DNA from: Mycoplana rhizolycopersici
GTDB taxonomy: Bacteria; Pseudomonadota; Alphaproteobacteria; Rhizobiales; Rhizobiaceae
DNA: 64,000 bases
Assembly: GCF_013378445.1 (NCBI RefSeq)
Contig: NZ_JABXYK010000004.1
Location: forward strand, 62,001 to 126,000
Reading direction: 5' to 3'
Shown here: piece after piece, positions 9,428 through 26,352 of the stretch
Layout of the letters: the number at the start of each line of letters is the position of its first letter
Numbering within the stretch: position 1 is the first letter of the stretch
The notes under the pieces: model-generated
Told to the model about the DNA's origin: nothing
Databases searched by the model: none
Seen by the model: the letters and a program-made list of their open reading frames with translations, nothing else
Made by a program: the position numbers and the translations under genes

Positions 9428-9776
9428 TGTGCCGCGGCGGGTGGCGGAAGGCAACACTCCGCCGGCCCTCCCCCTCTTTCGTGCCCGCGCTTGGCGGCCT
9501 TCGCTGCGCATGTCTTGCGCTGCTGGCGGTCGCGAGGCGGTCGCTGTGATCGGCGAAGCTCGACTTGTCTCTGTGACGCCACGTGCTGGCAGGCGGCCAG
9601 CTTGTTTCTCCCTCCCCTCCCCTTCTGACACTTGGGCGTTCCTTGTTTGTTCGGACCGCCTTGAACGCGCTCTTAACCTTTCGTTAACGATAAACCGTTT
9701 GACCAGACGCGCAAATCAGTTGAAAACGGTCGCGACGGAATTTTTCCGACTTTCCTCAATTAACCGTCGGACAATC
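9428..9776. other. Non-coding leader upstream of repA
   Basis: About 350 bp without a convincing gene. Its last ~140 bp are clearly AT-richer than the flanks (around TTAACCTTTCGTTAACGATAAACC at 9674-9697), as expected for a repABC promoter/partition region. I looked for the repABC parS consensus GTTNNNNGCNNNNAAC and did not find a clear copy by eye. Confidence 0.45.
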
Positions 9777-10994: not shown

Positions 10995-12022
10995 ACAGCG
11001 CCAGTGATCGCTCCAAGAGAATGAAAGCCATGTTCGGGGGCATCAACCCCGAGGAGCTTGCCGCTACCGTGGCGCCCTCCCCGCTGTCGCAGGCCGGCCG
11101 CCGCGTGTCTTCCGGCGCCGTGCGGTCGATGCAGGACTCCTTTTCGGCGATCGAAGACGAAAATGCACGGCTGCGCGACCAGCTTGCCGGTTCAGAGGCA
11201 GTGGTCGAGATTGCACCGGATCAGATTGAGCCGTCCTTCGTGCGCGACCGGATGGAGGATGAGGTGGACCCCGGTCTTGCCGATCTCGTGCGTAGTATCG
11301 GCGAGCACGGGCAGCAGGTGCCGATCCTCGTCCGTCCGCATCCAGATGCGAGCGGTCGTTACCAGATCGCCTATGGCCATCGCCGCTGGAAGGCGTCGCG
11401 CCAACTGAACCGTGCAGTCAAGGCGATCGTCCGGCCGCTTTCCGACGACGCGCTGGTTATCGCGCAGGGCAAGGAAAACAGCGAACGCAAGGATCTGTCC
11501 TTCATCGAGCAGGCGCTGTTTGCACAGGAACTGAAGGAACGCAGCTTCGACCGTCAGACGATCGCGGCCGCCTTGGGGCGCAGCGAGGACAAGGGGCTGG
11601 CCTATATCTCGATCCTGACCTCGCTGGCGAGCACTCTGTCGCTGGACATCGTTCGCAAGATCGGGCCTGCGCCGAAGACGGGACGCCCGAGATGGGAAAA
11701 GCTGGCGGCGCATTTTTCCGACCGCAAGCTTCCGGCCGCGCGCTCCTCGGCGGCGAATGGGCTGATGTCTTCCGAAAAGTGGCTCGCCGCCGACAGCGAC
11801 GCGCGCTTCTCGATGCTGCTGTCGCTGCTGGACGCGAAGGAGAAGCCGGTGTCCGCCAGGAGCATCATCAAGGGCGGGGCAGGGCAGGAGGCCGTGGCAA
11901 TCGAGCGGACGGGACAAGTGACCCGTTTCGCGGTCGACGAGCGCCAGAATCCGGGCTTTGCGGAATGGCTTGCCCGGGAGCTTCCGTCACTTGTGACGCG
12001 CTTCGAGCAGGAGCGCGGCTAA
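10991..12022 (+). CDS. repB: Plasmid partitioning protein RepB (ParB-type centromere binder)
   Basis: A 343-aa ParB/RepB protein. The N-terminus (KRMKAMFGGINPEELA) is typical of RepB. The ParB catalytic/CTP region contains YQIAYGHRRWKAS (about residues 119-131) and QGKENSERKDLSFIEQA (about residues 158-174). This is followed by a helix-turn-helix (FDRQTIAAALGRSEDKGLAYISILTSL) that would bind parS. Its start is inside repA (ATGA). In a normal repABC operon repC, the replication initiator, would follow after ~150 bp; instead the next gene is an fba aldolase. The pair is therefore a partition-only locus as seen here. Confidence 0.92.
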   Translation: MNSASDRSKRMKAMFGGINPEELAATVAPSPLSQAGRRVSSGAVRSMQDSFSAIEDENARLRDQLAGSEAVVEIAPDQIEPSFVRDRMEDEVDPGLADLVRSIGEHGQQVPILVRPHPDASGRYQIAYGHRRWKASRQLNRAVKAIVRPLSDDALVIAQGKENSERKDLSFIEQALFAQELKERSFDRQTIAAALGRSEDKGLAYISILTSLASTLSLDIVRKIGPAPKTGRPRWEKLAAHFSDRKLPAARSSAANGLMSSEKWLAADSDARFSMLLSLLDAKEKPVSARSIIKGGAGQEAVAIERTGQVTRFAVDERQNPGFAEWLARELPSLVTRFEQERG

Positions 12023-12439: not shown

Positions 12440-13486
12440 ATGGCGTTGATTACGATGCGGCAGTTGCTCGATCATGCTGCGGAGAACGACTACGCGCTGC
12501 CTGCGTTCAACGTGAATAACCTGGAATACATCCAGGCTGTCATGCGCGCAGCCGACGCGACCGATTCGCCGGTGATCCTGCAGGCAAGCCGCGGTGCACG
12601 CGCCTATGCCGGCGACGCCTTCCTGCGTCACCTCATCCTCGGTGCTGCCGAAGAATATCCGCATATTCCAGTATGCCTTCATCTCGACCACGGCGATCAG
12701 CCTTCGACCTGCATCTCGGCCATCACGAACGGCTTCACGTCGGTGATGATGGATGGATCGCTGCTGGCGGACGGCAAGACCGTGGCAAGCTACGAATACA
12801 ATGTCGACGTCACTGCCGAAGTGGTGAAGATCGCCCATGCGGCTGGCGTCTCCGTCGAGGGCGAGCTTGGATGTCTCGGCAACCTCGAGACCGGTGCCGG
12901 CGACAAGGAAGACGGTCACGGCTTCGAGGGCAAGCTGTCGCGCGAGGAACTGCTGACCGATCCGGACCAGGCGCTGGACTTCGTCAGCAAGACCGGCGTC
13001 GATGCTCTGGCCGTCGCCATCGGCACCAGCCACGGCGCCTACAAGTTTACCCGCGAGCCGGACGGCGAGATCCTCTCGATCGAGACGATCGCCAGGATCA
13101 ACAAGAAGCTGCCGAACACGCATCTCGTCATGCACGGCTCGTCGTCCGTTCCGAAGGAGCTTCAGGATCTGTTCAACAGCTATGGCGGCCAGATGAAGCC
13201 GACCTGGGGCGTTCCGGTGTCGGAGATCCAGAAGGCGATCCCGCTTGGCGTGCGCAAGGTCAACATCGATACGGACCTGCGCCTGGCGATGACCGGTACG
13301 ATCCGCAAGAGCTTCACCGAGGCGCCGGAAAATTTCGACCCGCGCAACTATCTGAAGCCTGCGACCGCGCTGATGGCAGAGGTCTGCAGGGAACGCTTCG
13401 AAGCCTTCAGGACGGCCGGCAAGGCCTCGAAGATCCGCGTGAAGCGGCTGCCGGAAATGGCGAAGTTCTACACGTCTGGCAAATAA
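12440..13486 (+). CDS. fba: Class II fructose-bisphosphate aldolase, Calvin-cycle subtype
   Basis: This 348-aa zinc-dependent aldolase interconverts fructose-1,6-bisphosphate with DHAP and glyceraldehyde-3-phosphate. ATG 12440 gives the family N-terminus [27 protein letters not shown], with an AAAAGGGAGA site upstream. Metal and catalytic motifs are visible: HLDHGDQPS (about residues 80-88), [22 protein letters not shown] (about 138-159), GTSHGAYKF and [20 protein letters not shown] near residue 275 binds the phosphate. It stands alone after repAB and before the minus-strand RuBisCO-like cluster. Since aldolase products feed triose phosphate pools, it could serve the neighbouring sugar pathways, but no operon link is seen. 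Confidence 0.93.
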
Positions 13487-13930: not shown

Positions 13931-15049
13931 TCAGGCATGGACGGCTGCGACCAGTCGACGGCAGGCGTCTACCAGGTTGGGTTCTTGAAGCAGTGCCCCT
14001 CCGATGAGGTACATGACGTCGTTGCCGTAGGCATCCCGCATCTCGGGCACACGGCCGAAGGTCATGCCGCCGCCGGGGGCGGCGACGATAGCCTTTCGGC
14101 CACCCATGTTCACCGCGCAGGCGGCTGCGATCGACAAGCATTCTTCGCGGGTAAAACCGAAGCGGCCGCCGAAATTCGGATAGATCACCGCGTCAGCGCC
14201 CATCAGGCGGTGCAGCGTGCCGTAGAAGGTGCGGTGCGAAAAGCCGCAATCGGGAGAAATCACGTTGGCGCCGGAAAAGGCCGGATGCGAGACAATCGGC
14301 AAGGTGAAATCCGGATCGGCGGCGAGCGCGCGCACGACATCGTAGCCGGCGAGCGCCGGCGCGATCATGACGCCGCCGGCGCCGCATTCCTGCGCCTGCA
14401 TCGCCCGCTCGATGATCGCAGTCGCCGGGCCGGTGATGTTGGGAACGAAGCTCGCCCGGCCTCCGCTTTTCGCATTTGCCTCACCAACGGCTTCTACGCA
14501 GGCTTTCAGCCGCTCGTCGAACGGCGCGGTCTTCTGGTCGACGAGGCCGTGGTCGTCCTTGATATAGTTCATGCCGCCCAGCGCGAAATCGTGGGCGAGG
14601 CGGGCAAGGGCTATGGTTGAAAGACCCACCGGCTTGATCGCCGACATCAGCAGCGGTTCGTCGCCGATACCCGCGCGGGCCCGCAGACCGGCGATGCCGT
14701 GGCGCGGGCCCGCGCAGAGGTCGAGCAAGCCGGGCGAGAGGCCGATGTCCTCCACCTTGAGGCCTGGCTTGATGGAACTGTTGCCGAAGACGATGTTGAG
14801 GAACTGCAGAAAATCCTCGCCGATATCGTCCTCCGAATAGGAGATGGTCGCAAGATAGCCCGGCCGGCCTTCCGGGTCCTTTTGCAGATTTTCCAGCCGG
14901 CCGAGAATCTCGTCCTCGACGTAGCCTTTCGGCACTGCGCTGCGCGGGATCTCCACGGTCTGCTCCAGCGCGATATCCAGCGCCCGCGCCTTCGCCTCCG
15001 CCTGGTCGGCGGCACGCACGAAATAGGTAACCGTGAAGCGCTTTGCCAT
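13931..15049 (-). CDS. RuBisCO-like protein (form IV), probable sugar-phosphate isomerase/enolase-type enzyme
   Basis: This 372-aa RuBisCO large-subunit homologue is not a carboxylase. The open frame extends upstream into the transketolase gene, but ATG 15049 fits the family N-terminus (MAKRFTVTYF) and shares a base with the upstream stop (TGATG). It keeps the proton-shuttling Lys (IKPVGLS, K139) and the carbamylation/metal motif (NYIKDDHGL, K164-D165-D166, with His in place of the usual Glu). The loop-6 catalytic Lys is absent: the region reads YPNFGGRFGF (about 290-299). Form IV proteins include DK-MTP-1-P enolase, the 5-methylthioribulose-1-P isomerase of Rhodospirillum rubrum and 3-oxo-isoapionate-4-P decarboxylase. 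Co-operonic mtnA/mtnK favour a methylthio- or deoxy-pentose phosphate substrate; the nearby apiose genes leave the third option open. Confidence 0.88.
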   Translation of the reverse strand: MAKRFTVTYFVRAADQAEAKARALDIALEQTVEIPRSAVPKGYVEDEILGRLENLQKDPEGRPGYLATISYSEDDIGEDFLQFLNIVFGNSSIKPGLKVEDIGLSPGLLDLCAGPRHGIAGLRARAGIGDEPLLMSAIKPVGLSTIALARLAHDFALGGMNYIKDDHGLVDQKTAPFDERLKACVEAVGEANAKSGGRASFVPNITGPATAIIERAMQAQECGAGGVMIAPALAGYDVVRALAADPDFTLPIVSHPAFSGANVISPDCGFSHRTFYGTLHRLMGADAVIYPNFGGRFGFTREECLSIAAACAVNMGGRKAIVAAPGGGMTFGRVPEMRDAYGNDVMYLIGGALLQEPNLVDACRRLVAAVHA

Positions 15050-16050
15050 CAGAGGGCCTCGGCTTTCTGTGCGGAATGCACATGGTCGAGGCGAACTTCT
15101 GCCAGTTCCTCCTCGCCGATGGCGAGTTGTCTGGCGATCAGGGTTTCGACGGCGGCGACGAGCGCGCCGGCATCGAGCCCGTATTTCTTCATGAGGTAAG
15201 GCTTCGAGGCGCCATGGGCGAAGGTGTCGTTGAGGCCCAGGCGCCTCAGGCGGATGCCAAGCCCTTCTTCGGCAAGGAATTCCGCGACCAGTGAGCCGAG
15301 GCCGCCGATGATCGTGTGGTTCTCCAGCGTGACGATGCCCTTCTTGCCGCGCGCGGCTTTCAGGAGGCCTTCCCGGTCGAACGGCTTTAAAGTCGATGCA
15401 TGCAGATGGTGGATGCCGACACCGCGTGCCGCGATCGGCCCGGTGGCGCGCAACGCCTCTTCCGTGCATACGCCGGAGGAGACGACGAGGATGTCGTCTC
15501 CTTCCGAGAGCGTGCGCAGCCTGTTGAATTCGAAGGGAGTCGCGAAGAGACGGGGTACTTCGCCGCGCAGGACGCGCACATAGACCGGTCCGTCGATGCT
15601 GTCGGCGACATCCAGAACGGTCTCGACTTCCGTCGCGTCGCCCGTTTCGAGGATCGTCATGTTCGGTACGGCCCGCAGCACGGCGATGTCCTCGATCGCC
15701 TGGTGCGTGATGCCGCCGGGCGTGGTGATGCCGGGCAGGAACCCCATCAGCCTGACCTTGCGGTTGGAATAGGCGATCGAGTTGATCAACTGGTCGTAGG
15801 GGCGGCGATAGAGGAAGACCGAGAAGGTGTGGACGAACGGCCGGAACCCCTGCATGGCAAGGCCGCCGGCGAAGGAGAGCATGTTTTGCTCGGCCATGCC
15901 GAGCGACAGGAACTGTTCGGGATGCCGGTCGCGAAAACCGTCTACCTCGCAGGAAGAGGTGAGGTCGGCGGAGAGGCAGAGGACTTCAGGGCGCGCGGCC
16001 GCGAAGGCTTCGAACGCCTTGGCATAGGGGCGGTTGACGATTTCGACCAT
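15049..16050 (-). CDS. Half-transketolase, C-terminal (pyrimidine-binding) subunit
   Basis: This 333-aa protein matches the central and C-terminal domains of transketolase, split from its partner. It has the catalytic Glu that activates thiamine diphosphate (GMAEQNML, E54), the HQAIEDIAVLRAVPNM motif (H116) and a C-terminal regulatory domain (GIVTLENHTIIGGLGSLVAEFLAEEGL). It would pair with the N-half encoded 2 nt upstream to move a two-carbon ketol unit between sugar phosphates. Split transketolases are known for apulose-4-phosphate (AptAB). Here the operon also carries mtnK, mtnA and a RuBisCO-like protein, so a 1-modified xylulose phosphate is an attractive but untested substrate. Confidence 0.88.
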   Translation of the reverse strand: MVEIVNRPYAKAFEAFAAARPEVLCLSADLTSSCEVDGFRDRHPEQFLSLGMAEQNMLSFAGGLAMQGFRPFVHTFSVFLYRRPYDQLINSIAYSNRKVRLMGFLPGITTPGGITHQAIEDIAVLRAVPNMTILETGDATEVETVLDVADSIDGPVYVRVLRGEVPRLFATPFEFNRLRTLSEGDDILVVSSGVCTEEALRATGPIAARGVGIHHLHASTLKPFDREGLLKAARGKKGIVTLENHTIIGGLGSLVAEFLAEEGLGIRLRRLGLNDTFAHGASKPYLMKKYGLDAGALVAAVETLIARQLAIGEEELAEVRLDHVHSAQKAEAL

Positions 16051-16052
16051 GG

Positions 16053-16988
16053 TCAGGCCCCTTCCATCGCGATGAGATCGATGCCGAGTTCGGCGGCGAG
16101 AGCCGCCTGCATTTCCAGCCGCTCCTCCGCGCTCTTGAAGCGGACATAATGCAGGCGCGGAAAACGCTTCCTCAGGAAATCCATGCCCTGATAGGGCGAG
16201 GTGTTGGCGAGGATGATCAGCGGTTTGTCGGTTTCGGCGCTGTCCGCTGCGGCCCGTAGCGCGCCGAGATCGTGGCCGTCCACCGAGCGGCAGGTGACGC
16301 CGAATGCGGAAACACGTGCGGCCAGATCGCCAAGGTCGAGCACCGAGGACATGGCGCCGTCACATTGTTGGCGGTTCACGTCGACGATGACGCGGACATT
16401 GTCGATCTTGTGATGGCTCATCGCCGTAAGGCATTCCCAGGTCTGGCCCTCCTGGAATTCGCCGTCGGACATATAGACCCAGACCTTGCCGGGCTCATTT
16501 TTTTTCAGCCGCGCCCAGGCGACGCCGGAGGCCATCGAGAGGCCCTGCGCCAACGAACCGGTCGTCACTTCCATGCCTGGGCTGTGCTCGGCGCCGATCA
16601 TCTCGACCGAGCCGCCGTCGTTGTTGAAATGGTCGAGCGCATGTTCGTCCATGCGGCCGGTCTCGATCAGCGCGGAATAGATGACGAGCGCATAATGGGC
16701 GGGCGAGATGAAGAAGCGGTCGAAGTCCGGGCCGGCCGGGCCGTGATAGCCCGCGCCGGTGAAGGCATCCGGATTGTGCGCCGACGGAACGCCGCGGAAG
16801 GGCAGGGGTACCTTCGGCAGCGTCGGTTCGCCGAGCTTCAGCAACTCGTTATAGAGCAGCGCGAGGCTCTCGGCGGCCGAGCAGGCCTGGCTGAGATAAC
16901 CGCCATTGTGCTTCATCGTGTGGAAGAACACGCGCCGGCGGATGCCGAGCGCGATATCCTCTGTGGTTTTTTCGTTGGGCAGGATCAT
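16053..16988 (-). CDS. Half-transketolase, N-terminal (ThDP pyrophosphate-binding) subunit
   Basis: A 311-aa protein corresponding to the N-terminal transketolase domain. The ThDP/Mg motif is recognisable: SDGEFQEGQ (about 174-182) to NRQQCDG (N205), with Ser for the first Gly of the usual GDG. GSLAQGLSMASGVA (about 144-157) is conserved. Two canonical motifs are altered: SKGH appears as SPAH (about 95-98), and the early GHPGGSLS histidine motif reads GGYLSQACSAAE (about 29-40). This suggests an atypical substrate pocket. It is 2 nt upstream of the C-half and 4 nt downstream of mtnA in one operon. Confidence 0.87.
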   Translation of the reverse strand: MILPNEKTTEDIALGIRRRVFFHTMKHNGGYLSQACSAAESLALLYNELLKLGEPTLPKVPLPFRGVPSAHNPDAFTGAGYHGPAGPDFDRFFISPAHYALVIYSALIETGRMDEHALDHFNNDGGSVEMIGAEHSPGMEVTTGSLAQGLSMASGVAWARLKKNEPGKVWVYMSDGEFQEGQTWECLTAMSHHKIDNVRVIVDVNRQQCDGAMSSVLDLGDLAARVSAFGVTCRSVDGHDLGALRAAADSAETDKPLIILANTSPYQGMDFLRKRFPRLHYVRFKSAEERLEMQAALAAELGIDLIAMEGA

Positions 16989-16992
16989 CGTC

Positions 16993-18087
16993 TCAACTCC
17001 GTTCGGGAAAGAGCGCCTTCAGCCCCTCGGGCGACGGTGTGGCGATGCCGCGCTCGGTGATGAGGCCGGTGATCAGGCGCGCGGGCGTCACGTCGAAGGC
17101 GGGGTTGGCCGCGGGGCTGCCCTCCGGCGAGATGCGCACGCTGGCAATAGAGCCATCGGCGGCGCGACCCTGGACGAAGCTCACTTCGTCGGAAGTGCGT
17201 TCCTCGATCGGGATTTCCTTGACGCCGTCATGCACCGCCCAGTCAATGGTGGGCGAGGGGAGTGCCACATAGAACGGCACGCCGTTGTCGCGCGCGGCAA
17301 GCGCCTTCAGATAGGTGCCGATCTTGTTGCAGACGTCGCCGTTCGCCGTGGTGCGGTCGGTGCCGACGATCACCATGTCGATATCGCCATGCTGCATGAG
17401 GTGGCCACCGGCATTGTCGACGATCAGCGTGTGCGGCACGCCATGGCCGTTCATCTCCCAGGCGGTGAGATAGGCGCCCTGGTTGCGCGGCCGCGTCTCG
17501 TCGACATAGACGTGGACCGGAATGCCTTCCTCGACGGCCATGTAGATCGGCGCGGTCGCAGTTCCGTAGTCGACGGTCGCAAGCCAGCCGGCGTTGCAAT
17601 GGGTGAGAATGCGCACGGGCTCGCCCGGCTCTTTCCTGGAGGCAATCTCGCGAATGACATCGAGGCCGTTCGCGCCGATGGCGCGGTTGAGTTCGACATC
17701 CTCCTCGGCGATCTCGGCGGCGCGCACGTAGGCGGCGTCAGCGCGTTCGCCCTCGGGCAACGGGCGCAGATACTCGCGCATCGCATTCAGCGCCCAGCGC
17801 AGATTGATGGCGGTCGGACGGGTTTCGTTCAGCTCTTCCCAGACGGAATCGAGTTGCGCATCCGACGGATCCTTCGCCATGGCGATGGCGACGCCATAGG
17901 CAGCCGTGACGCCGATCAGCGGTGCGCCGCGCACCCACATGTCCCTGATGGCGACAGCGACATCGGCGACGGTCTTCAGCGTGACGACGCGGAATTCGTG
18001 CGGAAGCCAGCGCTGGTCGATGATGTCGACGGAGCGGCCGTCTTCGCTGAGCCAGATCGTATGGTAGTGTCGTTCTCCGACTTTCAC
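16993..18087 (-). CDS. mtnA: S-methyl-5-thioribose-1-phosphate isomerase (MtnA family)
   Basis: This 364-aa aldose-ketose isomerase converts 5-methylthioribose-1-P, or the analogous 5-deoxyribose-1-P, to the ribulose-1-P form. The catalytic Cys lies in [15 protein letters not shown] (C164), a variant of the usual CNTGSLAT, and the catalytic Asp in [11 protein letters not shown] (D244). [19 protein letters not shown] and NKIGTY are also conserved. The start is GTG 18087, overlapping the mtnK stop (GTGA), with AAGGAG 8 nt upstream. It belongs to the five-gene mtnK-mtnA-TK-TK-RuBisCO-like operon. eIF2B-alpha-like paralogues share this fold, but the kinase neighbour makes the sugar-phosphate role likely. 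Confidence 0.9.
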
Positions 18088-19355
18088 GCGAGAATCTCCT
18101 TTTCAAGCCGCTCCACCGTCTCGCGGATGTCCCTGAGGCTATGGATGCGCTGCCGGTTGACGGCGAGGTGACGCCCGAGCTTCAGCGCCTTGCTTTCGCA
18201 GGACGCACGGCGGTCGGGGTCGGTGATGGTTTCAAAATCGGCATTGTGGGCAAGGCCGAGAATGCGCCGGTGGATCTCGATCCCGGCGAAGCCCAGCATT
18301 TCGCTCCAGATTTCGTCGATCACGATATTGAGGGCCTGCTCGGCGGCGAGCGGGTCCTGGCGGTCCTCGAAGAGGCTCGCCTGATAGAGGATGCCCTTAC
18401 GCTCGGTGTGCCAGAGATGGGCGAATTCGTTGCGGAACGTCTCCCAAAGCGTGTCGATTGTAGCGAGCAGGTAGGCGCGCATGCTGTCGCGCGCGCCAGG
18501 TGCCGTCTCATGGCCGGACTGGGAAAAATAGCTCATCCAGAAATTGGCGATCAGCATGCCGACATCGAAGCTGATCGGGCCGTAGAAGGCGAATTCCGGG
18601 TCGATGACGCGCGTCTCGTCGTCGGTCACCATGACGGAACCGGTATGCAGGTCGCCATGGCAAAGCGTTTCGGTCTTGGCCGAGAAGAGGTGTTTCAACC
18701 GCTGCGCTTCCACCTTGAGATCGCGATCGGCGCGCAGTTCGGCAACGAGCGGATCGAGCTGCGGCGTGGTGTGGCGGTTGAGTGCCGCCTCGAAATAGGG
18801 ATCGGAAAAGACAAGGTTTTCCGTGATGTCGCAGAGTTCGACATTGTCGGAGAACAGCGCGACATCGGCCTTCTTCTCGCGGGTCTCCATGGAGAGGTCT
18901 GAGCCGCGGAACAGCGTGCGGGCGACGAACAGGCCGAGGTCGCTGCCGATCTTCGGCAGTTCGCGCCCCTGGATCAGCGCGTGGCGCAGGATGACGTGAG
19001 GCGTCAGGAATTCCATGACGATGATGGCCTGCGCCTCGTCAAAGAACAGGATTTCCGGCACCATGCCCGGGTCGCGCTCGCCCTGGCGCTTCAGCGCTTG
19101 ATACTCGAAGAAGGAGCGCTTGAGCGGCAGTGGCCAGCTCTCGCCGACAAGGCGCACATAGGGCAGTGCCTGCTTGACGATCACGGCCCCCGTCTCGCCC
19201 GTCACGATAAAGACGAGGTTGAGGTTGCCGTCGCCGACTTCCTCGATGCTCCAGCGGGACGATTCGTCGCCGATCTTCTCTTTCACGGCGGCATTGCCGC
19301 CCAGCCGAACTGGCAATGTCTCGGCGCTCAGCGCCTCGAAGACGTGGCTGTCCAT
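18084..19355 (-). CDS. mtnK: S-methyl-5-thioribose kinase (MtnK family)
   Basis: This 423-aa kinase has the aminoglycoside-phosphotransferase/choline-kinase fold. Features are the nucleotide-binding N-lobe ([14 protein letters not shown]), the catalytic loop HGDLHTGS (233-240) and the Mg-binding DPEFAFYGP (252-260). These are the hallmarks of 5-methylthioribose kinase, which makes the 1-phosphate. ATG 19355 follows an AGGAGGAGA ribosome site. It heads the minus-strand operon and is divergent from the sugar transporter, with a palindromic operator between them. 5-deoxyribose is an accepted alternative substrate in related salvage pathways. Confidence 0.92.
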
Positions 19356-19433
19356 GATGTTCTCCTCCTGCGCATGGGGCTGCCTCCACCGCCCGCCGCC
19401 ATGCCGTCCTTGTCCACAGCTAAGGCATCATTC

Positions 19434-19457
19434 TGTCAATTGTCAATGATATTGACA
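19434..19457. promoter_or_regulatory. Palindromic operator between mtnK operon and sugar ABC operon
   Basis: TGTCAAT occurs twice in tandem (19434-19440, 19441-19447), and the second copy forms a perfect 7-3-7 palindrome with ATTGACA at 19451-19457. The site lies midway in the 146-bp divergent promoter region. TTGACA/TGACA elements also occur in the promoter of the SorC-type regulator at 26372-26405, so I infer one regulator controlling both. Confidence 0.6.
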
Positions 19458-19501
19458 TTTGATGAGAGCCTATCCTAACGTGGCGTCAATGGGAGGAGAG
19501 A

Positions 19502-21016
19502 ATGGGCGAACAGGCAGTGTTTCGCATTGAGGGCGTGCGCAAATCCTTTGGGCCGGTAACGGTGCTTCAGGGTGTGGACCTCGACCTCAAGGCAGGCGCA
19601 GTGACGGTTTTGATGGGTGCCAATGGCGCCGGCAAATCCACGCTCGTGCGCATCCTCTCCGGCGTTTACACACGCAATGCCGGCACGATTGCGCTTGCGG
19701 GTGCGGCCTTCGATCCGGCGACGCCGGCCGAGGCGATCCGCTCCGGTGTCGTCACCGTGCACCAGAACATCAATGACGGCGTCGTCGCTGATCTCGATGT
19801 CGCGACCAATCTCACGCTCGACCGGCTGAACGGTCGCGGCGCCCGGCTGCTCTTCAATCCGCGCCGTGTGCGCCGCGAAGCGGCCGCCGTCGCCTCCCGC
19901 ATGGGCCTTGCCATCGATCTTACGGCCAATATCAACGATCTAACGCTTGCCGACCGCCAGATGGTGGCGATTGCGCGCGCCATGGCGCATGAGCCGAAGG
20001 TGCTGATCCTCGACGAGCCCACCTCTTCGCTTTCCAGCGCCGAGGCCGACCGCCTGTTTAAACTCGTAGACCGCCTGAAGGCGCGGGGCGTCGCCATTCT
20101 CTATATCTCGCACCGCATGTCGGATATCCGGCGCCTAGGCGACAGCATCGTCTCGCTGCGCGATGGCCGCATCACCGGCCGTTTCGAAGGGCCGGAGCTC
20201 GACTACGAAGGCGCGGTCAATGCCATGCTCGGGCGCAAGGTGTCCGCCGGTGCCGTGGCCGTTCGCGATGCGGGCCGTCCGGTCTTCAGCGTGCGCGGCC
20301 TCAAACTCTCCGAACAGACGCGGCCTTTCGATTTCGATCTCGGCGAAGGCGAGATCGTCGCCGTCACCGGTCTAGTCGGCGTGGGCAAGACGGCGCTCGC
20401 CGAAACGCTTTTTGGCGCCCGCGCTCCGGCAGCCGGTGAAATGACGCTGGACGGCGCGCGCTATGCGCCGAAGACGACGGGTCAAGCGATTGCCCACGGC
20501 ATCTTCCTTGTCGCCAAGGACCGCGCGATCAGTGGCATCGTGCCGGATTTCAACATTTACGAGAATATCAGCCTGCCCTTCCTGCGTCGGTTTTCGGCCT
20601 TCGGTGTTGCCAGCCGACGGGCGGAGAAGGCGAAAGCGCGCCAGCAGATTTCGGCGCTCGGCGTCGTCTGCCGCAGCGAGCGCGACGAGATGCAGACGCT
20701 GTCGGGCGGCAACCAGCAGAAGGTCATGGTCGGGCGCTGGCTTTCGGAGCCCTCGCGGGTGCTCATCCTCGACGAACCCTTCCAGGGCGTCGATATCGCC
20801 GCCCGCCGCGACATCGGCGAGAAGCTGCGTGTCTCCGCCGCCGGGCGAACCACCATTCTTTTCCTGACGGAGCTCGACGAAGCCTTCGAGGTCGCCGACC
20901 GCATCCTCGTGATGTCGGAACAGACCATCGTGGGTGAGCACCGCAATGCCGACATCGACGTCGAGCGGCTGCTCTCCGAGATCGCCGGGCAATTCTATCA
21001 ACAGGTCAGCGCATGA
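19502..21016 (+). CDS. Sugar ABC transporter ATP-binding protein, RbsA type
   Basis: A 504-aa fused double ATPase. The first cassette has Walker A GANGAGKST (about residues 39-47), a degenerate signature (LTLADRQMVAIARA) and Walker B LILDEPTSSL. The second has GLVGVGKTA, a canonical LSGGNQQKVMVGRW and LILDEPFQGVD. The start follows GGGAGGAGA by 2-8 nt. It is the first gene of a three-gene transporter operon divergent from mtnK. The likely cargo is the sugar phosphorylated by MtnK (5-methylthioribose or 5-deoxyribose), inferred only from position. Confidence 0.9.
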   Translation: MGEQAVFRIEGVRKSFGPVTVLQGVDLDLKAGAVTVLMGANGAGKSTLVRILSGVYTRNAGTIALAGAAFDPATPAEAIRSGVVTVHQNINDGVVADLDVATNLTLDRLNGRGARLLFNPRRVRREAAAVASRMGLAIDLTANINDLTLADRQMVAIARAMAHEPKVLILDEPTSSLSSAEADRLFKLVDRLKARGVAILYISHRMSDIRRLGDSIVSLRDGRITGRFEGPELDYEGAVNAMLGRKVSAGAVAVRDAGRPVFSVRGLKLSEQTRPFDFDLGEGEIVAVTGLVGVGKTALAETLFGARAPAAGEMTLDGARYAPKTTGQAIAHGIFLVAKDRAISGIVPDFNIYENISLPFLRRFSAFGVASRRAEKAKARQQISALGVVCRSERDEMQTLSGGNQQKVMVGRWLSEPSRVLILDEPFQGVDIAARRDIGEKLRVSAAGRTTILFLTELDEAFEVADRILVMSEQTIVGEHRNADIDVERLLSEIAGQFYQQVSA

Positions 21017-22065
21017 TGATGAGTGAACAAAGCAAATCCGCCGCCACCGGCGCCGTCCCGCCTGTCCGTCTGAACATCCGGGAAGCCGCGATGAAATACG
21101 GCTTCCTCGTGCTGCTCGCCGGCATTGTGCTCTACTTCTCGCTGGTTACCGGCGGCTTTGCCTCGCCGCAGAGCGCGGTCTTCATCCTGCAATCCGTCTC
21201 GATCACTGGCATTCTGGCGCTCGGCGTCACGGCAACGCTGGTCGTCGGCGGTTTCGACCTTTCGATCGGTTCCGTCGCCACCACAGCCATGATGGCCTCG
21301 TCCTATGTGATGGTGGTGATGGGCGGCGATGCGGTGACGGCGACACTCGTCTGCCTCGCCGTTGGTGTGCTCGTCGGCCTCGTAAACGGGATCATCATTG
21401 TTTATATGCGCGTGCCGGATCTGCTGGCGACGCTCGGCATGATGTTCCTGCTGCTCGGTCTCCAGCGCATTCCGACCGAGGGGCGTTCGATCGCCACGGG
21501 CATGACGCTGCCGGACGGCTCGACGGCAACGGGCGCCTTCAGCCCGGCCTTTTTGGCACTCGGCCGTCACCGCTTCGATCTGATACTGCCCAATCTCGTT
21601 CCTGTCTCGGTGGTAGTACTGATCGTGCTCGCCATCCTCATCTGGTTCTTCCTCGAATACACCCGCTTCGGCCGCATGATGTATGCCGTCGGCTCCAACG
21701 AGCGGGCTGCGAGCCTCGCTGGCGCGCCGGTCAATACCTACAAGATCTTTGCCTACATCATCTCGGGCGTCTTTGCCTCGATCGGCGGCATCCTGCTTGC
21801 CGCCCGCCTTGGGCGCGGCGACATTGCCTCGGGCAACAACCTTCTTCTCGACGCCGTTGCGGCAGCCCTCATCGGTTTTGCCGTGCTCGGTGCCGCCAAG
21901 CCGAATGCCTTCGGCACGGCGATCGGCGCGCTGTTTGTCGGTATCCTGCTGCAGGGCCTGACGATGATGAACGCGCCTTACTACACACAGGATTTCGTCA
22001 AGGGCGCCGTGCTCGTCATCGCCCTGATCTTCACATTTGCGCTCTCGAAAAGAGGCAAACGCTGA
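21013..22065 (+). CDS. Sugar ABC transporter permease, RbsC type
   Basis: This 350-aa integral membrane protein has about ten hydrophobic helices. It carries the family motifs GGFDLSIGSVATTAMM (about residues 77-92) and NERAASLAGAPVNTYK in the cytoplasmic loop. Three in-frame ATGs (21013, 21016, 21019) overlap the ATPase stop, so the exact start is uncertain by two codons. It forms the membrane channel for the transporter opposite mtnK. Confidence 0.9.
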   Translation: MMMSEQSKSAATGAVPPVRLNIREAAMKYGFLVLLAGIVLYFSLVTGGFASPQSAVFILQSVSITGILALGVTATLVVGGFDLSIGSVATTAMMASSYVMVVMGGDAVTATLVCLAVGVLVGLVNGIIIVYMRVPDLLATLGMMFLLLGLQRIPTEGRSIATGMTLPDGSTATGAFSPAFLALGRHRFDLILPNLVPVSVVVLIVLAILIWFFLEYTRFGRMMYAVGSNERAASLAGAPVNTYKIFAYIISGVFASIGGILLAARLGRGDIASGNNLLLDAVAAALIGFAVLGAAKPNAFGTAIGALFVGILLQGLTMMNAPYYTQDFVKGAVLVIALIFTFALSKRGKR

Positions 22066-22116
22066 GTGTGGGAGCCCTCGGCGGATAATCAAAGCTCACC
22101 AGTGGAGGAGACTGAC

Positions 22117-23160
22117 ATGAATTTTACTCGCAGAACCCTGGGCAAGATAACGCTCGGGCTGATGGGTGCGGCGGCGTTCGCCGTGCCATCCGTTGCCGCC
22201 GATATGCCTAAGCCCTTCGACAAGCCCGGCGATGTGAAGATTGCGCTCGTGCGCTATCTTTCGACCGGTGACTTCTTCCAGTCCTACCTTGCCGGCGTGG
22301 AAGCCCAGGCCAAGGCGCTGGGCGTCCAGCTTCAGGTCCTGGACAGCCGTCAGGACGCGGCACTGCAGGCAGACATGGTCGACCAGGCTATTGCGCTTGG
22401 CGTGCAGGGCATCATCATCCAGCACGGGCTGACGGAATCCATGAAGGAAGCCGCCCAGCGCGCGGTTGATGCCGGCATCAAGGTCGTCGCCTTCGACGTC
22501 AACGTCGAGAATGACAAGATCCCGCAGGTCGAGCAGTCCGACCGTGACCTTGCCCGTCTCGCGCTCGAACAGGCGATCAAGGACAACGGCGACAGTTTCA
22601 AGGCAGGCTATGTGTACGTTGCCGGGATCGCGCCGCTCGATCGCCGCGACGAGACCTGGAAGGAGTTCAAGGCGAAGTATTCGGGCATCAACGAAGCCGC
22701 CCAGTTCGGTACAATGGACAACCCGATCGCCAACTCTGTCGCCAATCAGGCGCGTTCGGTGATCTCCGCCAACCCCGACATCACCGTGATGTTCGCCCCC
22801 TATGATGAATTCGCCAAGGGCGTGAAGATCGCCGTCGATGAAGCCGGAATGTCGTCGAGCGTCAAGATCTACTCGGCCGACATCTCGACCTCCGACATCG
22901 CCGCCATGCGCGAACCCGGCTCGGCCTGGGCCGCAACGGCTGCGACGAACCCGGCTGTGGTCGGCCAGGTCTCGGTACGTTCGCTCGCCATGCTGCTCGC
23001 CGGCGAAGACCCGGGCAAGCAGGTCATCGTGCCGCCGACGCTGATCACGCAGCAGGATCTCAACGACCAAGACATCAAGAACATGGAGGAGCTCGGCGTA
23101 AAGCTGCCGCAGTTCGCCCATGCCGATGTCGCCATGCCGGCATGGATGCCGAAACCCTGA
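22117..23160 (+). CDS. Sugar ABC transporter substrate-binding protein
   Basis: This is a 347-aa periplasmic binding protein of the ribose/autoinducer-2 (RbsB/LsrB) class. ATG 22117 follows GGAGGAG by 6 nt; the upstream in-frame extension lacks family sequence. A signal peptide ends at VPSVAA-DMP (about residue 28). Ligand-pocket-type motifs include ALVRYLSTGDFFQSYLAG, DSRQDAALQADMVDQAIALGVQGIII and FAPYDEFAKGV. It closes the transporter operon and is followed by a strong bidirectional terminator. The ligand is inferred from the flanking MtnK/MtnA and aldolase genes to be a 5-modified pentose. Confidence 0.9.
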   Translation: MNFTRRTLGKITLGLMGAAAFAVPSVAADMPKPFDKPGDVKIALVRYLSTGDFFQSYLAGVEAQAKALGVQLQVLDSRQDAALQADMVDQAIALGVQGIIIQHGLTESMKEAAQRAVDAGIKVVAFDVNVENDKIPQVEQSDRDLARLALEQAIKDNGDSFKAGYVYVAGIAPLDRRDETWKEFKAKYSGINEAAQFGTMDNPIANSVANQARSVISANPDITVMFAPYDEFAKGVKIAVDEAGMSSSVKIYSADISTSDIAAMREPGSAWAATAATNPAVVGQVSVRSLAMLLAGEDPGKQVIVPPTLITQQDLNDQDIKNMEELGVKLPQFAHADVAMPAWMPKP

Positions 23161-23180
23161 TTTGTCGTGAGGGAATGAAG

Positions 23181-23212
23181 AAGGGGCGGTCCATAGGGCC
23201 GCCCCTTTGTTT
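23181..23212. terminator. Bidirectional rho-independent terminator
   Basis: A 9-bp stem AAGGGGCGG (23181-23189)/CCGCCCCTT (23199-23207) with a 9-nt loop is followed by TGTTTTG. It lies between the convergent binding-protein and aldolase genes and can serve both. Confidence 0.8.
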
Positions 23213-23257
23213 TGTCCGATCGAGCGAGTGGAGCAGCGTGCCTGCCCCGTCCGGAAA

Positions 23258-25312
23258 TCAGCGCATCGCGGCAGCGATGTTGCCGCCGTCGACGGTGGTC
23301 ACGTCGGCGGTGGTGCGCTCGGCGAGTGCGTGGTGCACGAAGGCGCGGGCGACGTCTTCGGCCGTCACTTCAAGGCCGAGCAGGTTGCCACCCATGTATT
23401 CCTTGACGGAGAGGCCGCGTGCTGCCGCACGATTGGCGATCATCTCGTCGTTGAGCAAACCCGAACGGATGCGGTCGGCATTGACGGCGTTGACGCGGAT
23501 GTTGTCTGCGCCATGTTCCAACGCATATTGCCGCGACAGGAAGAGTGTTGCCGCCTTCGGCAGGCCGTAGGCGCCGAATTTCGCGCCCGGATTGACGGCC
23601 TGCTTGGATGCGTTGAAGAGCAGCACGCCGCCGGTCTTTTGCGCCTTCATGATGCGTACGGCATTCTGCGCGACGGTCTGATGGGCGAAGAAGTTCAGCT
23701 CGAAGCTCTTGCGCAGCAGCGCGTCGTCCATCGTTGCGATAGGGCTTTCCCAGGCAGCCCCGGCATTGGAAACGACGATGTCGACGCCGCCGAAGGTGGC
23801 GATCGCCTTGTCGAAGGCGGCGCGGACGGATGCGGGTTCGGTGATGTCGCAGGCGACACCGATCGAATTGTTACCGGCCGCCCTGGCAACGGCCGCCGCC
23901 TTCTCGCCGTCAAGATCGAGCGCCACGACATGCGCGCCCTCCGCCGCAAAAGCCTTGACGACCGCCGCCCCAATGGCACCCGCACCGCCGGTGACGATCG
24001 CGACCTGTCCCGTGAACGGCTTCGGTTTGGCACCCGCCAACTTCGCCTGCTCCAGCGACCAATATTCGAGATCGAAGAGATCCGGCGGGCTCACCGGCTC
24101 GAACCGGCCGACGGATTCGGCATCCCGTGCCGCCTCGATCCACATCTCGCCGACGTCGACGGCGATCGCTGCATCCTTGAAGGTTCGCCCGTGGCCGAAC
24201 ATGCCGAGACCAGGCACCAGCGTCAGGCGCGGCATGGGGTCAAGCATGATGCGCTTGACGTCGTCGCGGGCGTCATTGCTGCGGAAGTATTCGGTGTAGT
24301 TGGCGGCAAAGGCGGCGACGCGTTCGTCGATGACAGCGCGGTAGCCGGCGAGATCGTCCATTGCCGGCGCCGGCAGCACCATCGGACCGGTCTTGATGCG
24401 GATGGAAAGATCCGGCGTGGACACCCCGCGCGCAGCCATGTCGGCAACCTCCGCAGCATTGACGAAGTTGAGAATGGCTGGTGACGTGCGGAAGACGTTG
24501 ACCATGCGGTCATAGCGGCCTTCGCCCTTGGCCACGGCGACGGCGCCGCGCAGCATGGGGGAAATGTCATTGGCGCTTGCAAGCGAAGAGGGCAGGGCGG
24601 CCGGCGTGAAGGGGTTGCGGCCGTTTTTCTTCACATGGTCTTCGGCGACCGTGACGTAATGGATCATCCGGTCATAGGCTTCCTTCGCCGTGTCGCCGAA
24701 GGTGAAGATGCCGTGCTTGTCGAGGATCAGGCCCTCGACTGTCGGGTCCTGCTCGAACACTTCCGCCGCCGACTTGGCGAGCGCGAAGCCGGGCATGATA
24801 TAGGGCACGAAGCCCATCTTCCTGCCAAAGAGTTCGGCGCTCATTTCCCGGCTCTTCGCCTGATCGGCGATAGCGAGAATGGCGGTCGAATGGGTGTGGT
24901 CGACGAATTTGTGCGGCAGGAAGGCATGCAGCAGCGCTTCCACGGATGGGTTCGGTGCCGCGGGATCGATCAGGTTGGCGCGCAGCAGCGTCACCATGTC
25001 CTCGTCCGAGAGCTTTTCGAGCTTGCGGCTTTTGAGCAGCGGACCGATCTTGACGGCGGGCAGGCCCGGCGGCTCGATCGTGCCCATGTCCCAGCCGCTG
25101 CCCTTCACGCAGAGCACGGCATGGGTGTCGCCCACGAGATCGGTCACCTCGGTCTTCACGGAGGTGTTGCCACCGCCATGCAGGACGAGCCGCGGCTCCG
25201 CGCCGAGCAGCCGTGTCGTATAGGTGCGCAGCGCCAGATCGCGGTTGATGCCCTTCGCCGCATATCCGGCGACGACCTTTTCCGCCTCGTCGTCGCGCCA
25301 GAGATTTTCCAT
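23258..25312 (-). CDS. Bifunctional ketose-1-phosphate aldolase / short-chain dehydrogenase
   Basis: This is a 684-aa fusion. The N-terminal ~380 residues are a class II aldolase/adducin domain with metal-binding histidines in DHTHSTAIL (H139, H141) and the phosphate-pocket stretch GGGNTSVKTE. The C-terminal ~250 residues are an SDR with VTGGAGAIGAA (near residue 440) and the YGLPK active-site YxxxK. The layout matches rhizobial RhaD, which cleaves rhamnulose-1-P to DHAP and lactaldehyde. No rhamnose isomerase, kinase or transporter is present. Beside mtnK/mtnA it more plausibly cleaves 5-methylthio- or 5-deoxy-ribulose-1-P to DHAP and an aldehyde that the SDR domain then oxidises or reduces, as in the DHAP shunt. 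Confidence 0.88.
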   Translation of the reverse strand: MENLWRDDEAEKVVAGYAAKGINRDLALRTYTTRLLGAEPRLVLHGGGNTSVKTEVTDLVGDTHAVLCVKGSGWDMGTIEPPGLPAVKIGPLLKSRKLEKLSDEDMVTLLRANLIDPAAPNPSVEALLHAFLPHKFVDHTHSTAILAIADQAKSREMSAELFGRKMGFVPYIMPGFALAKSAAEVFEQDPTVEGLILDKHGIFTFGDTAKEAYDRMIHYVTVAEDHVKKNGRNPFTPAALPSSLASANDISPMLRGAVAVAKGEGRYDRMVNVFRTSPAILNFVNAAEVADMAARGVSTPDLSIRIKTGPMVLPAPAMDDLAGYRAVIDERVAAFAANYTEYFRSNDARDDVKRIMLDPMPRLTLVPGLGMFGHGRTFKDAAIAVDVGEMWIEAARDAESVGRFEPVSPPDLFDLEYWSLEQAKLAGAKPKPFTGQVAIVTGGAGAIGAAVVKAFAAEGAHVVALDLDGEKAAAVARAAGNNSIGVACDITEPASVRAAFDKAIATFGGVDIVVSNAGAAWESPIATMDDALLRKSFELNFFAHQTVAQNAVRIMKAQKTGGVLLFNASKQAVNPGAKFGAYGLPKAATLFLSRQYALEHGADNIRVNAVNADRIRSGLLNDEMIANRAAARGLSVKEYMGGNLLGLEVTAEDVARAFVHHALAERTTADVTTVDGGNIAAAMR

Positions 25313-25371
25313 CGTGTTCAGCCTCCCGATAAACCGGCCCGGCCGGCATCGGCGGACCTAAATATGCTAGC

Positions 25372-26352
25372 TCAAGCCTTACTCGAACCGCTCTTGCCGA
25401 GCCCTTCCCGGGCCCAGCGTTCAAGGACCCGCCGCGCCATCGAGGTGGTGATGACGAGATGCGAGGCAAAGCCGCCTTTCAGCGCTGCCATCAGCGGCTC
25501 GAACTTGTTTTCTTCCTGCACGACGAGCATGCGTTTCCTGATGGCCCGGATCGATTCGAGATCGGCGGAAATACAGCGCCTGTTGTGATTGCAATCCATC
25601 CATTGGCCGTCATGGTCGATCAGTTGGCCGGCAATGACACCGGCGGCACCCTGCACGCCCATGGCATGCATGTCGGCGGCGGAAAGCGCGCCACACTTGA
25701 CGAGATGACTGTCGTCCTCGATGCCCCCCACGGAATAGAGTGCGAGATCGCAATCCGAAATCGTCGCCAATTGCTCCTTGATTACGGGTTCGCCGCGCAG
25801 CTCATTGGCGAGGCGCTCGGAGGAGAGGACGAGCGGCGCATAGAAATTGATGCCTTCCGCATTGAGGCGTCGGGCGATTTCGGTGGTGCACTGGTCCGGC
25901 CGGTAGGAGTAGGGGGCGCCCAGATTGCCGCAGAGCTGCACGACGGTAACGCCGCGCAGGTCCGCAAATGGCATGACGTCGGCGATGTGGTAGACGGTGC
26001 GGCCCCAGGCAACACCGACCCGGTCACCCTTGTTGAGAAGTTCGAGGAAGACCGAAGCGGCAACGACGGGCATTTCGGCGGCCGGATCCATTGCCTGCCG
26101 GTCTTCCGGCACCAGCCAGGCCGTGTTCAGCCCCGTCGCGTCTTCAAGCTCCCGGGCCAGCACATCGTCGGAGAAGAGCTCCGTGGAGGTTGAGATGGTA
26201 ACGATCCCCATCTCGCGTGCCTTGCGCAAGTACATGGCGATCGAGGCGCGCGAGATCTCCAGCCGTTGGGCGACTTCGTCCTGACGCAGCCCGTGGTTGT
26301 AGTACAGCCAGGCGGCCTTGTGGATGATTTGATCGTTGGTGCGGATGGGCAT
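25372..26352 (-). CDS. SorC/DeoR-type sugar-binding transcriptional regulator
   Basis: A 326-aa regulator with an N-terminal helix-turn-helix (YYNHGLRQDEVAQRLEISRASIAMYLRKAREMG, about residues 17-49). A C-terminal SorC sugar-phosphate-binding domain contains GDRVGVAWGRTVYHIAD, LCGNLGAPYSYRPDQ and YSVGGIEDDSHLVKCG. SorC regulators respond to phosphorylated sugars. It lies 59 nt upstream of the aldolase/dehydrogenase gene in the same direction and probably shares its transcript. Its promoter contains TTGACA/TGACAAAAGTCA elements like those between mtnK and the transporter, so it likely controls the whole 13.9-26.4 kb locus and itself. Confidence 0.88.
   Translation of the reverse strand: MPIRTNDQIIHKAAWLYYNHGLRQDEVAQRLEISRASIAMYLRKAREMGIVTISTSTELFSDDVLARELEDATGLNTAWLVPEDRQAMDPAAEMPVVAASVFLELLNKGDRVGVAWGRTVYHIADVMPFADLRGVTVVQLCGNLGAPYSYRPDQCTTEIARRLNAEGINFYAPLVLSSERLANELRGEPVIKEQLATISDCDLALYSVGGIEDDSHLVKCGALSAADMHAMGVQGAAGVIAGQLIDHDGQWMDCNHNRRCISADLESIRAIRKRMLVVQEENKFEPLMAALKGGFASHLVITTSMARRVLERWAREGLGKSGSSKA

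Follow-up and report, generated by a model that had tools for sequence, protein, structure and literature searches.

The locus studied here raises the question of why a RuBisCO-like protein (RLP) should be encoded in one operon with the two halves of a split transketolase, a 5-methylthioribose kinase (MtnK) and a 5-methylthioribose-1-phosphate isomerase (MtnA). It lies in a stretch of 64,000 nucleotides from Mycoplana rhizolycopersici (contig NZ_JABXYK010000004.1, positions 62,001 to 126,000), which as a whole is termed the window, and it probably specifies the breakdown of 5-modified riboses, with 5-methylthioribose as the likeliest sugar, via the RLP and then the split transketolase. An importer would bring in the sugar, MtnK would form the 1-phosphate and MtnA 5-X-ribulose-1-phosphate (X being the modification), which the RLP would convert to 1-X-xylulose-5-phosphate. 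The split transketolase would cut the latter between C2 and C3, free glyceraldehyde-3-phosphate and keep X-CH2-C(OH)= on thiamine diphosphate (ThDP). All of these reactions were deduced; gene content, conservation, the kinship of the RLP, an alignment of the transketolase pocket and the near identity of transketolases from different loci were observed. The genes of the operon are the following.

18084..19355, minus strand: mtnK, which opens the operon and encodes a 5-methylthioribose (5-modified ribose) kinase (TIGR01767, 493.7 bits, cut-off 275)
16993..18087, minus strand: mtnA, 5-methylthioribose-1-phosphate isomerase (TIGR00512, 442.2 bits, cut-off 279)
16053..16988, minus strand: TK-N, N-terminal, ThDP-binding half of an atypical split transketolase (PF00456)
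15049..16050, minus strand: TK-C, pyrimidine and C-terminal half of the split transketolase (PF02779, PF02780)
13931..15049, minus strand: RLP, predicted 5-X-ribulose-1-phosphate 1,3-isomerase of 372 amino acids (PF00016)

The five genes are located on one strand with ends that overlap or nearly touch; mtnA and mtnK share four bases. As an ATG at 15049 overlaps the TK-C stop, the listed open reading frame (ORF) 13931-15469 was judged to begin too early for the RLP. An earlier note, made from the letters of this DNA, had named these genes and those of the importer, aldolase and regulator described below. All were recovered at or close to the positions given there, and the identity of MtnK and MtnA is borne out by scores above both curated cut-offs. 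Matches in the PDB were 2pyw (uncharacterised) and the methylthioribose kinase 2olc for MtnK, in which the motifs HGDLH and IDPE were found, and 1t9k, 6a34 and 2yrf for MtnA. A motif check of seven locus proteins found the expected motifs except for the RLP pattern K.V.G, which gave no match.

The block from mtnK to the RLP gene is not a chance neighbourhood. A TK-C alignment scan of the named genome collection gave 449 encoding stretches, the best 80 of which were kept; some of these loci are cut by contig ends, and genes were counted as present when hits exceeded 90 bits. With TK-C as the only query for finding them, these loci contained RLP in 75 cases, TK-N in 76, MtnA in 70 and MtnK in 69. 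A larger set of 136 loci (numbered with the prefix L) combined 14 from an RLP genome search, four from an RLP and two from a TK-C plasmid search, the 80 of the named scan and 36 from TK-C genome searches. TK-C is present in all 136 by construction, as is the RLP in the 18 loci found via the RLP and chosen for TK-C; L036 was dropped as its TK-C is cut by a contig end. The RLP was found in 120 of the 136 loci, in all 120 immediately downstream of TK-C on the same strand, and TK-N adjoins TK-C in 126. The adjacency of TK-C and RLP supports the view of the earlier note that the transketolase is placed to act on the RLP product.

Main hosts are Rhizobiaceae (Rhizobium, Shinella, Ensifer), Devosia, Martelella, Pannonibacter and roseobacters, joined by Parabeggiatoa and Thiomargarita. 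Plasmid records hold the same cluster, and a related one occurs in Vibrio nigripulchritudo. TK-C relatives (E <=1e-100) were found in three of 385 genomes sampled from the class and five of 398 from the phylum, the own genome being counted in both, and in 32 of 394 genomes of one family. Seven compared genes of a locus from that family (L193) are 95-99% identical to those of the Ponticoccus cluster, and the family was therefore taken as roseobacter-like.

With the RLP as query, some match was obtained in 172 of 397 genomes of the order, RuBisCOs included, and the 30 best were kept. The neighbourhoods then fetched include a group with TK-N and TK-C beside the RLP and another with a cupin beside it and no transketolase. 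The cupin-linked group comprises eight loci, including one from Terrarubrum (L048-L053, L057, L066); L044 and L054-L056 have neither partner nearby. In L044 (8743-9789), an RLP of the window group accompanies a sugar importer, with no transketolase within the fetched stretch.

The window RLP falls short of the cut-offs of all six NCBIfam models for RLP or RuBisCO that it matches, but it passes Pfam model PF00016. Its best relative of solved structure is 3qfw (233 bits), which we take to be an RLP of Rhodopseudomonas palustris. This entry is also the best match of one cupin-linked RLP (354 bits) and contains KDDHGL and GGRF; the window RLP carries KDDHGL and NFGGRFG. As group motifs these were noticed in the present analysis and have no published definition. 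K[DE]DHGL occurs in 91 of 94 transketolase-linked RLPs (L063, L140 and L143 deviate), eight of eight cupin-linked RLPs, three of five other RLPs and none of three references; the corresponding numbers for GGRF are 93 of 94, eight of eight, two of five and none of three (motif and residue counts omit two short TK-N rows and one short RLP row). In a tree of 42 rows, the transketolase-linked and cupin-linked RLPs (38 rows) group together, apart from MtnW, OiaX and RbcL, with support of 99/96, each reference being a single sequence on a long branch. The eight cupin-linked RLPs and L054 form a group at 100/100 whose place among the transketolase-linked rows is partly open; the long branches of L063 (Vibrio), L055 and the references are of unsure placement. 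Passages of PMC4958253 and PMC5893883 describe DeepYkr RLPs of Rhodospirillum rubrum and R. palustris that convert 5-methylthioribulose-1-phosphate to 1-methylthioxylulose-5-phosphate, after which a cupin frees methanethiol. From its grouping with the cupin-linked RLPs and the shared motifs, which support the isomerase-type RLP of the earlier note, the window RLP appears to belong with the DeepYkr-type isomerases and is a predicted 5-X-ribulose-1-phosphate 1,3-isomerase.

The RLP shares its superfamily with the enolase MtnW and the apionate enzyme OiaX, and an apionate cluster with an OiaX of its own lies next door, yet there is hardly any probability left for the RLP being one of these enzymes. 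It reaches 203.1 bits with NF007095 (cut-off 409) and 159.6 with TIGR03332 (cut-off 513.6), both rejecting MtnW, and 59.1 bits against a cut-off of 700 for OiaX; tree and motifs exclude both. The MtnW scores and the tree also led us to reject classical methionine salvage, and the own genome has only a short partial match to the dioxygenase ARD (27.8 bits, cut-off 27). Consistent linkage of the RLP clade to apionate genes had been named in the earlier note as the finding that would speak against its proposal. Such genes are within reach in one of the 136 loci (L069) and OiaX is a separate protein; an apionate reading of the locus was rejected on these counts and the OiaX score.

The transketolase halves match best, among solved structures, the split transketolase of Carboxydothermus (6yaj for TK-C, 6yak for TK-N). 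Numbered by alignment with Escherichia coli TktA, the ThDP-binding residues Asp155 and Asn185 are kept in 94 of 94 sequences, and the catalytic and phosphate-binding residues Glu411, Ser385 and Arg520 in 99, 98 and 100 of 100, respectively. The Arg358 equivalent is Arg in 90 and Lys in nine of 100; remaining deviations at kept positions are gaps or one Asn. The window TK-C retains the equivalents of Ser385, Glu411, His473 and Arg520. Other positions are changed throughout: His26 is Tyr (94/94), His100 is Ile (94/94) in one alignment and Met (6/6) in another, and Asp469 is Gly (100/100). In TktA the changed residues presumably contact the C1 hydroxyl, the C3 hydroxyl and the acceptor hydroxyl, with His100 touching the donor C1 hydroxyl. 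6yak, by contrast, has both histidines (positions of His26 and His100) in its alignment with TK-N. TK-C further matches models of 1-deoxyxylulose-5-phosphate (DXP) synthase below cut-off, five other TK-C-like matches exist in the own genome, and database records annotate this group only as transketolase or DXP-synthase domain.

The exchange of His26 for Tyr was dropped as a diagnostic since four other atypical split transketolases, from Azospirillum, Sinorhizobium, Cnuibacter and Variovorax (L149, L150, L151, L152), likewise have Tyr. Three of these enzymes lack the phosphate-binding Arg358 and Ser385 and may act on unphosphorylated sugars.

Evidence on the substrate of the transketolase comes from natural variants of the locus. 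Sixteen of the 136 loci show no RLP. The TK-C of 13 of them is 87-93% identical to RLP-adjacent TK-C (L137, 85%; L220, 60%; L221, 53%), and nine of the 16 contain a xylulokinase-like FGGY kinase, as compared to two of the 120 RLP loci (L063, L205; Fisher p 1.7e-8, with rows that are not independent). Whole loci were used for this comparison; FGGY kinases in the set of 121 non-redundant loci, i.e. the 136 minus those with near-identical TK-C, were counted within 9.5 kb only. The contig continues after TK-C for 373 bases in L142, 177 in L191 and 921 in L146 and L198, and for at least 1975 in the other 12 RLP-less loci. In a TK-C tree of 48 rows (rows more than 88% identical were merged, which leaves four RLP-less rows, and L133 was left out for its broken frames) the RLP label takes four changes, of which well-supported branches force at least three; L202, which has no RLP, is placed among RLP rows. 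The occurrence of a near-identical transketolase with either an RLP or a pentulose-kinase-like gene fits 1-modified xylulose-5-phosphate as its substrate and points to two routes by which this putative compound may be reached.

The RLP-less loci of Marinovum and Paracoccus seriniphilus also encode a zinc dehydrogenase, a class II aldolase, a SorC regulator and an oxide reductase. In L064, L065, L191 and L202, an RLP-less transketolase stands beside an oxide reductase, a zinc dehydrogenase, a class II aldolase and a xylulokinase-like kinase. L064, L065 and L191 additionally have a Tau-type importer, and the first two of these a sulfatase as well. These four loci may represent a pathway of their own for an oxidised sulfur pentitol or pentulose.

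Other variants suggest nucleosides as the source of the sugar. The Ponticoccus cluster begins with a BMP-type (nucleoside-like) importer, a purine-nucleoside phosphorylase, a deaminase-like amidohydrolase, MtnA and a molybdopterin S/N-oxide reductase, after which come TK-N, TK-C and RLP; phosphorylase and deaminase also stand as a pair beside the full cluster in L110, L118, L120 and L128 (Devosia, Pelagibacterium). RLP-less loci with the xylulokinase-like kinase, nucleoside-fed versions and versions linked to the oxide reductase go beyond the earlier note. The pathway might have three interchangeable feeds: the free sugar via MtnK, a nucleoside via the phosphorylase, and a pentitol or pentulose that enters through a dehydrogenase and the xylulokinase-like kinase, in many cases accompanied by an S-oxide reductase.

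As to the fate of the ThDP-bound fragment, phosphoketolase, and pyruvate dehydrogenase acting on 3-fluoropyruvate, reach acetyl-ThDP through beta-elimination from a ThDP enamine. Since methylthio leaves far more readily than the hydroxyl that departs in phosphoketolase, elimination from the enamine would be chemically natural here. In those enzymes the leaving group is OH or F rather than methylthio, and they belong to different protein families. We favour, among the possible last steps, a phosphoketolase-like loss of X as methanethiol to give an acetyl unit. That the split transketolase is such a methylthio-eliminating enzyme, turning 1-methylthioxylulose-5-phosphate into glyceraldehyde-3-phosphate, methanethiol and an acetyl unit, is nevertheless put forward tentatively, with the odds rather against it. 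X-acetaldehyde might instead be released, or the fragment transferred to an acceptor sugar. The two-carbon piece may also leave as an aldehyde handled by general enzymes: an aldehyde dehydrogenase is near seven of the 136 loci (two queries), and among ORF clusters common to at least four loci, inspected by eye, 11 loci had a separate short-chain dehydrogenase (SDR) and four an aldehyde-dehydrogenase-like ORF. Small partners could be missed because most unlabelled ORF clusters are shadow ORFs in GC-rich DNA.

With respect to the sugar, X is most likely methylthio. Hints at this come from the group to which the RLP belongs, from the families of MtnK and MtnA, from a bisC-family S/N-oxide reductase that accompanies the transketolase in 14 of the 121 non-redundant loci and from a homocysteine S-methyltransferase domain in two close relatives (L041, L042). 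A FucU/RbsD mutarotase in 13 of the 121 loci suits a free sugar.

Clusters of MtnK, MtnA and aldolase are, however, described as acting on 5-deoxyribose in parts of PMC6079011 and PMC12632272, and promiscuous transketolase reactions on 5-deoxypentoses are reported or suggested in a section of PMC8102628. If X were H, the RLP would yield DXP, and the transketolase would form glyceraldehyde-3-phosphate and acetaldehyde or an acyloin, thereby feeding or draining the isoprenoid precursor pool; the sub-threshold matches of TK-C to DXP synthase models would agree with this. The characterised RLP relatives were described with the methylthio substrate (passages of PMC4958253 and PMC5893883), and the oxide reductase and S-methyltransferase neighbours of sister loci would be left without a role, so 5-deoxyribose appears unlikely as the main substrate, if still a serious candidate. 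Far less probable is a third identity of X, e.g. dimethylarsinoyl or another heteroatom group of sugars from algae or bacteria, in which case the oxide reductase would prepare the substrate. Arsenosugars enter here from general chemistry. The reductase family is named for S- and N-oxides, and several hosts are marine or were obtained from cultures of algae or cyanobacteria; the S-methyltransferase domain speaks for sulfur, and no arsenic-handling gene was seen in the annotated regions, though no search was aimed at such genes.

Several observations weigh against the proposed pathway for methylthioribose or against parts of it. We know of no assayed enzyme of the RLP/transketolase group. The His100 equivalent reads differently (Ile or Met) in the two alignments. 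The four other split transketolases also have Tyr at His26, with Ser or Asn at His100; as they share Tyr26 and lack His100, the pocket change is not unique and only the combination of residues is distinctive. The bisC matches stay below the model cut-off (810-901 vs. 1017 bits), and MtnK and the reductase co-occur in none of the 121 loci, which means that the sulfur evidence stems from sister loci and not from the window type. The S-methyltransferase domains lie 2-6 kb from the block and score below the NCBIfam cut-off (104 vs. 215 bits). An RLP is not fully excluded in L142, L191, L146 and L198, which end 177-921 bases after TK-C. For an acetyl-forming step, E. coli queries located AckA near one and Pta near none of the 136 loci.

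The remaining genes of the system lie upstream of mtnK, where a ribose-type ABC importer (19502-23160, plus strand) runs divergently from the operon.

19502..21016, plus strand: sugar ABC importer, ATP-binding protein (PF00005, two stretches)
21013..22065, plus strand: sugar ABC importer, permease (ORF)
22117..23160, plus strand: ribose-type substrate-binding protein, ORF opening at 22066 (PF13407, weak RbsB similarity)
23258..25312, minus strand: class II aldolase/SDR fusion (NF006192, 1157.6 bits, cut-off 639; PF00596, PF00106)
25372..26352, minus strand: SorC-type sugar-binding transcriptional regulator (PF04198)

Among the 80 named loci, matches were obtained to the ATPase in 71, the permease in 72, the substrate-binding protein in 69, the aldolase/SDR fusion in 52 and a SorC-type regulator in 48, the window protein being the best query in 47 of the latter. 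The PF00596 domain of the fusion carries DHTHS and a second His motif. The fusion would serve a parallel branch of the dihydroxyacetone phosphate (DHAP) shunt type that starts from the same 5-X-ribulose-1-phosphate. This side branch is probably dispensable; the fusion is absent from the otherwise complete loci L086 and L088. The claim of the earlier note that both branches coexist holds insofar as an aldolase branch stands alongside the RLP, but parallel branches are already known from R. palustris, as a passage of PMC5893883 indicates, and the fusion is confined to 52 of the 80 loci.

This R. palustris precedent and the frequency of the fusion could also mean that the aldolase provides the main route, with the transketolase as an ordinary recycler of triose and pentose phosphates and the RLP as a minor salvage enzyme. 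We regard this as improbable in view of L086 and L088, the invariable position of the RLP behind TK-C, the changed canonical transketolase residues and the five other TK-C-like matches in the genome. The class II fructose-bisphosphate aldolase (12443-13486) adjoining the window RLP was rejected as a pathway member, as it was found in one of 80 loci. L131 presents the genes in a single run (MtnK, MtnA, mutarotase, TK-N, TK-C, RLP, aldolase/SDR fusion, LsrF-type protein). Its LsrF-type thiolase (14308-15189; 505 bits, cut-off 297) lies downstream of the fusion in a cluster that is otherwise window-like.

How does the proposed pathway relate to known systems? In the apiose and apionate pathways, the apulose-4-phosphate transketolase AptAB is reportedly a catabolic two-part transketolase and OiaX an RLP of sugar-acid catabolism; their substrates are different, and the OiaX model fails on the window RLP. 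The methylthioadenosine (MTA)-isoprenoid shunt of R. rubrum and R. palustris (MtnP, MtnA, DeepYkr RLP, cupin methylsulfurylase; passages of PMC4958253 and PMC5893883) has in common MtnA, an RLP of the same larger group with the same motifs and presumably the 1-methylthioxylulose-5-phosphate intermediate. In contrast, a cupin was found in none of the 80 TK-C loci (matches above 90 bits), which instead have a split transketolase, an importer of their own, MtnK and a SorC regulator; one cupin query gave no match in the own genome, in a search without positive control. The DHAP shunt of E. coli, Bacillus thuringiensis and R. palustris, as outlined in parts of PMC6079011, PMC12632272 and PMC5893883, uses MtnK or MtnP, MtnA and a class II aldolase, whereas here the aldolase is SDR-fused and dispensable and an RLP/transketolase branch is added. 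Transketolase also meets 5-deoxypentose salvage in the formation of 7-deoxysedoheptulose by Synechococcus and in a step suggested for Methanocaldococcus jannaschii (section of PMC8102628), but there the enzyme is an ordinary one, the deoxypentose is the acceptor and no RLP is named, the word RuBisCO not occurring in the paper. In the sulfo-TK pathway, SqwGH likewise cleaves a sulfur-bearing sugar, sulfofructose, in catabolism (part of PMC9594981); there the modified end stays on the released aldose and an ordinary ketol is transferred, whereas here C1 of the donor would be modified.

The earlier note had known of no described RLP-plus-transketolase step, and none turned up in open-access full text, where no paper was found in which methylthioribose, transketolase and RuBisCO-like protein all occur; nor did the titles and opening lines of abstracts among the papers listed name such a pathway. 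"Transketolase" does not occur in PMC6302742, PMC6079011, PMC4958253, PMC5893883 and PMC10672854; passages with it concern the Calvin cycle in PMC7895386 and a promiscuous activity on 5-deoxyribose in PMC8102628. The transketolase reaction is thus possibly new. If the proposed pathway is correct, the product of a RuBisCO-like isomerase has a further fate besides the cupin route, a function can be assigned to a transketolase group so far annotated by domain, and a possible use of methylthio- or deoxyriboses as carbon and sulfur sources by rhizobia, roseobacters and some large sulfur bacteria would find an explanation. Should elimination be the last step, the system with its three feeds would define a general route for methylthio-pentoses that needs no oxygen, and methanethiol, of importance in the sulfur cycle, would have one more biological source.

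The left end of the window lies inside a D-apionate cluster. ApnL is encoded within the window (5372-7237; 1053 bits, cut-off 750), and just upstream of the window (G000:C4:58381-61019, equal to L003 13382-16020) are OiaX and an OiaK-like kinase (456 bits, below the cut-off of 700). This OiaX (782 bits, cut-off 700), about 2.3 kb upstream of the window, differs from the window RLP, and the contig therefore encodes two RLPs of distinct type at a distance of some 16 kb. The interval that separates the apionate cluster from the RLP cluster contains, at 9621-12022, partitioning genes whose products RepA and RepB score over their cut-offs, and the contig is therefore probably a repABC plasmid or chromid. 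RepA/RepB-like ORFs, as judged by eye, also follow the RLP in L086.

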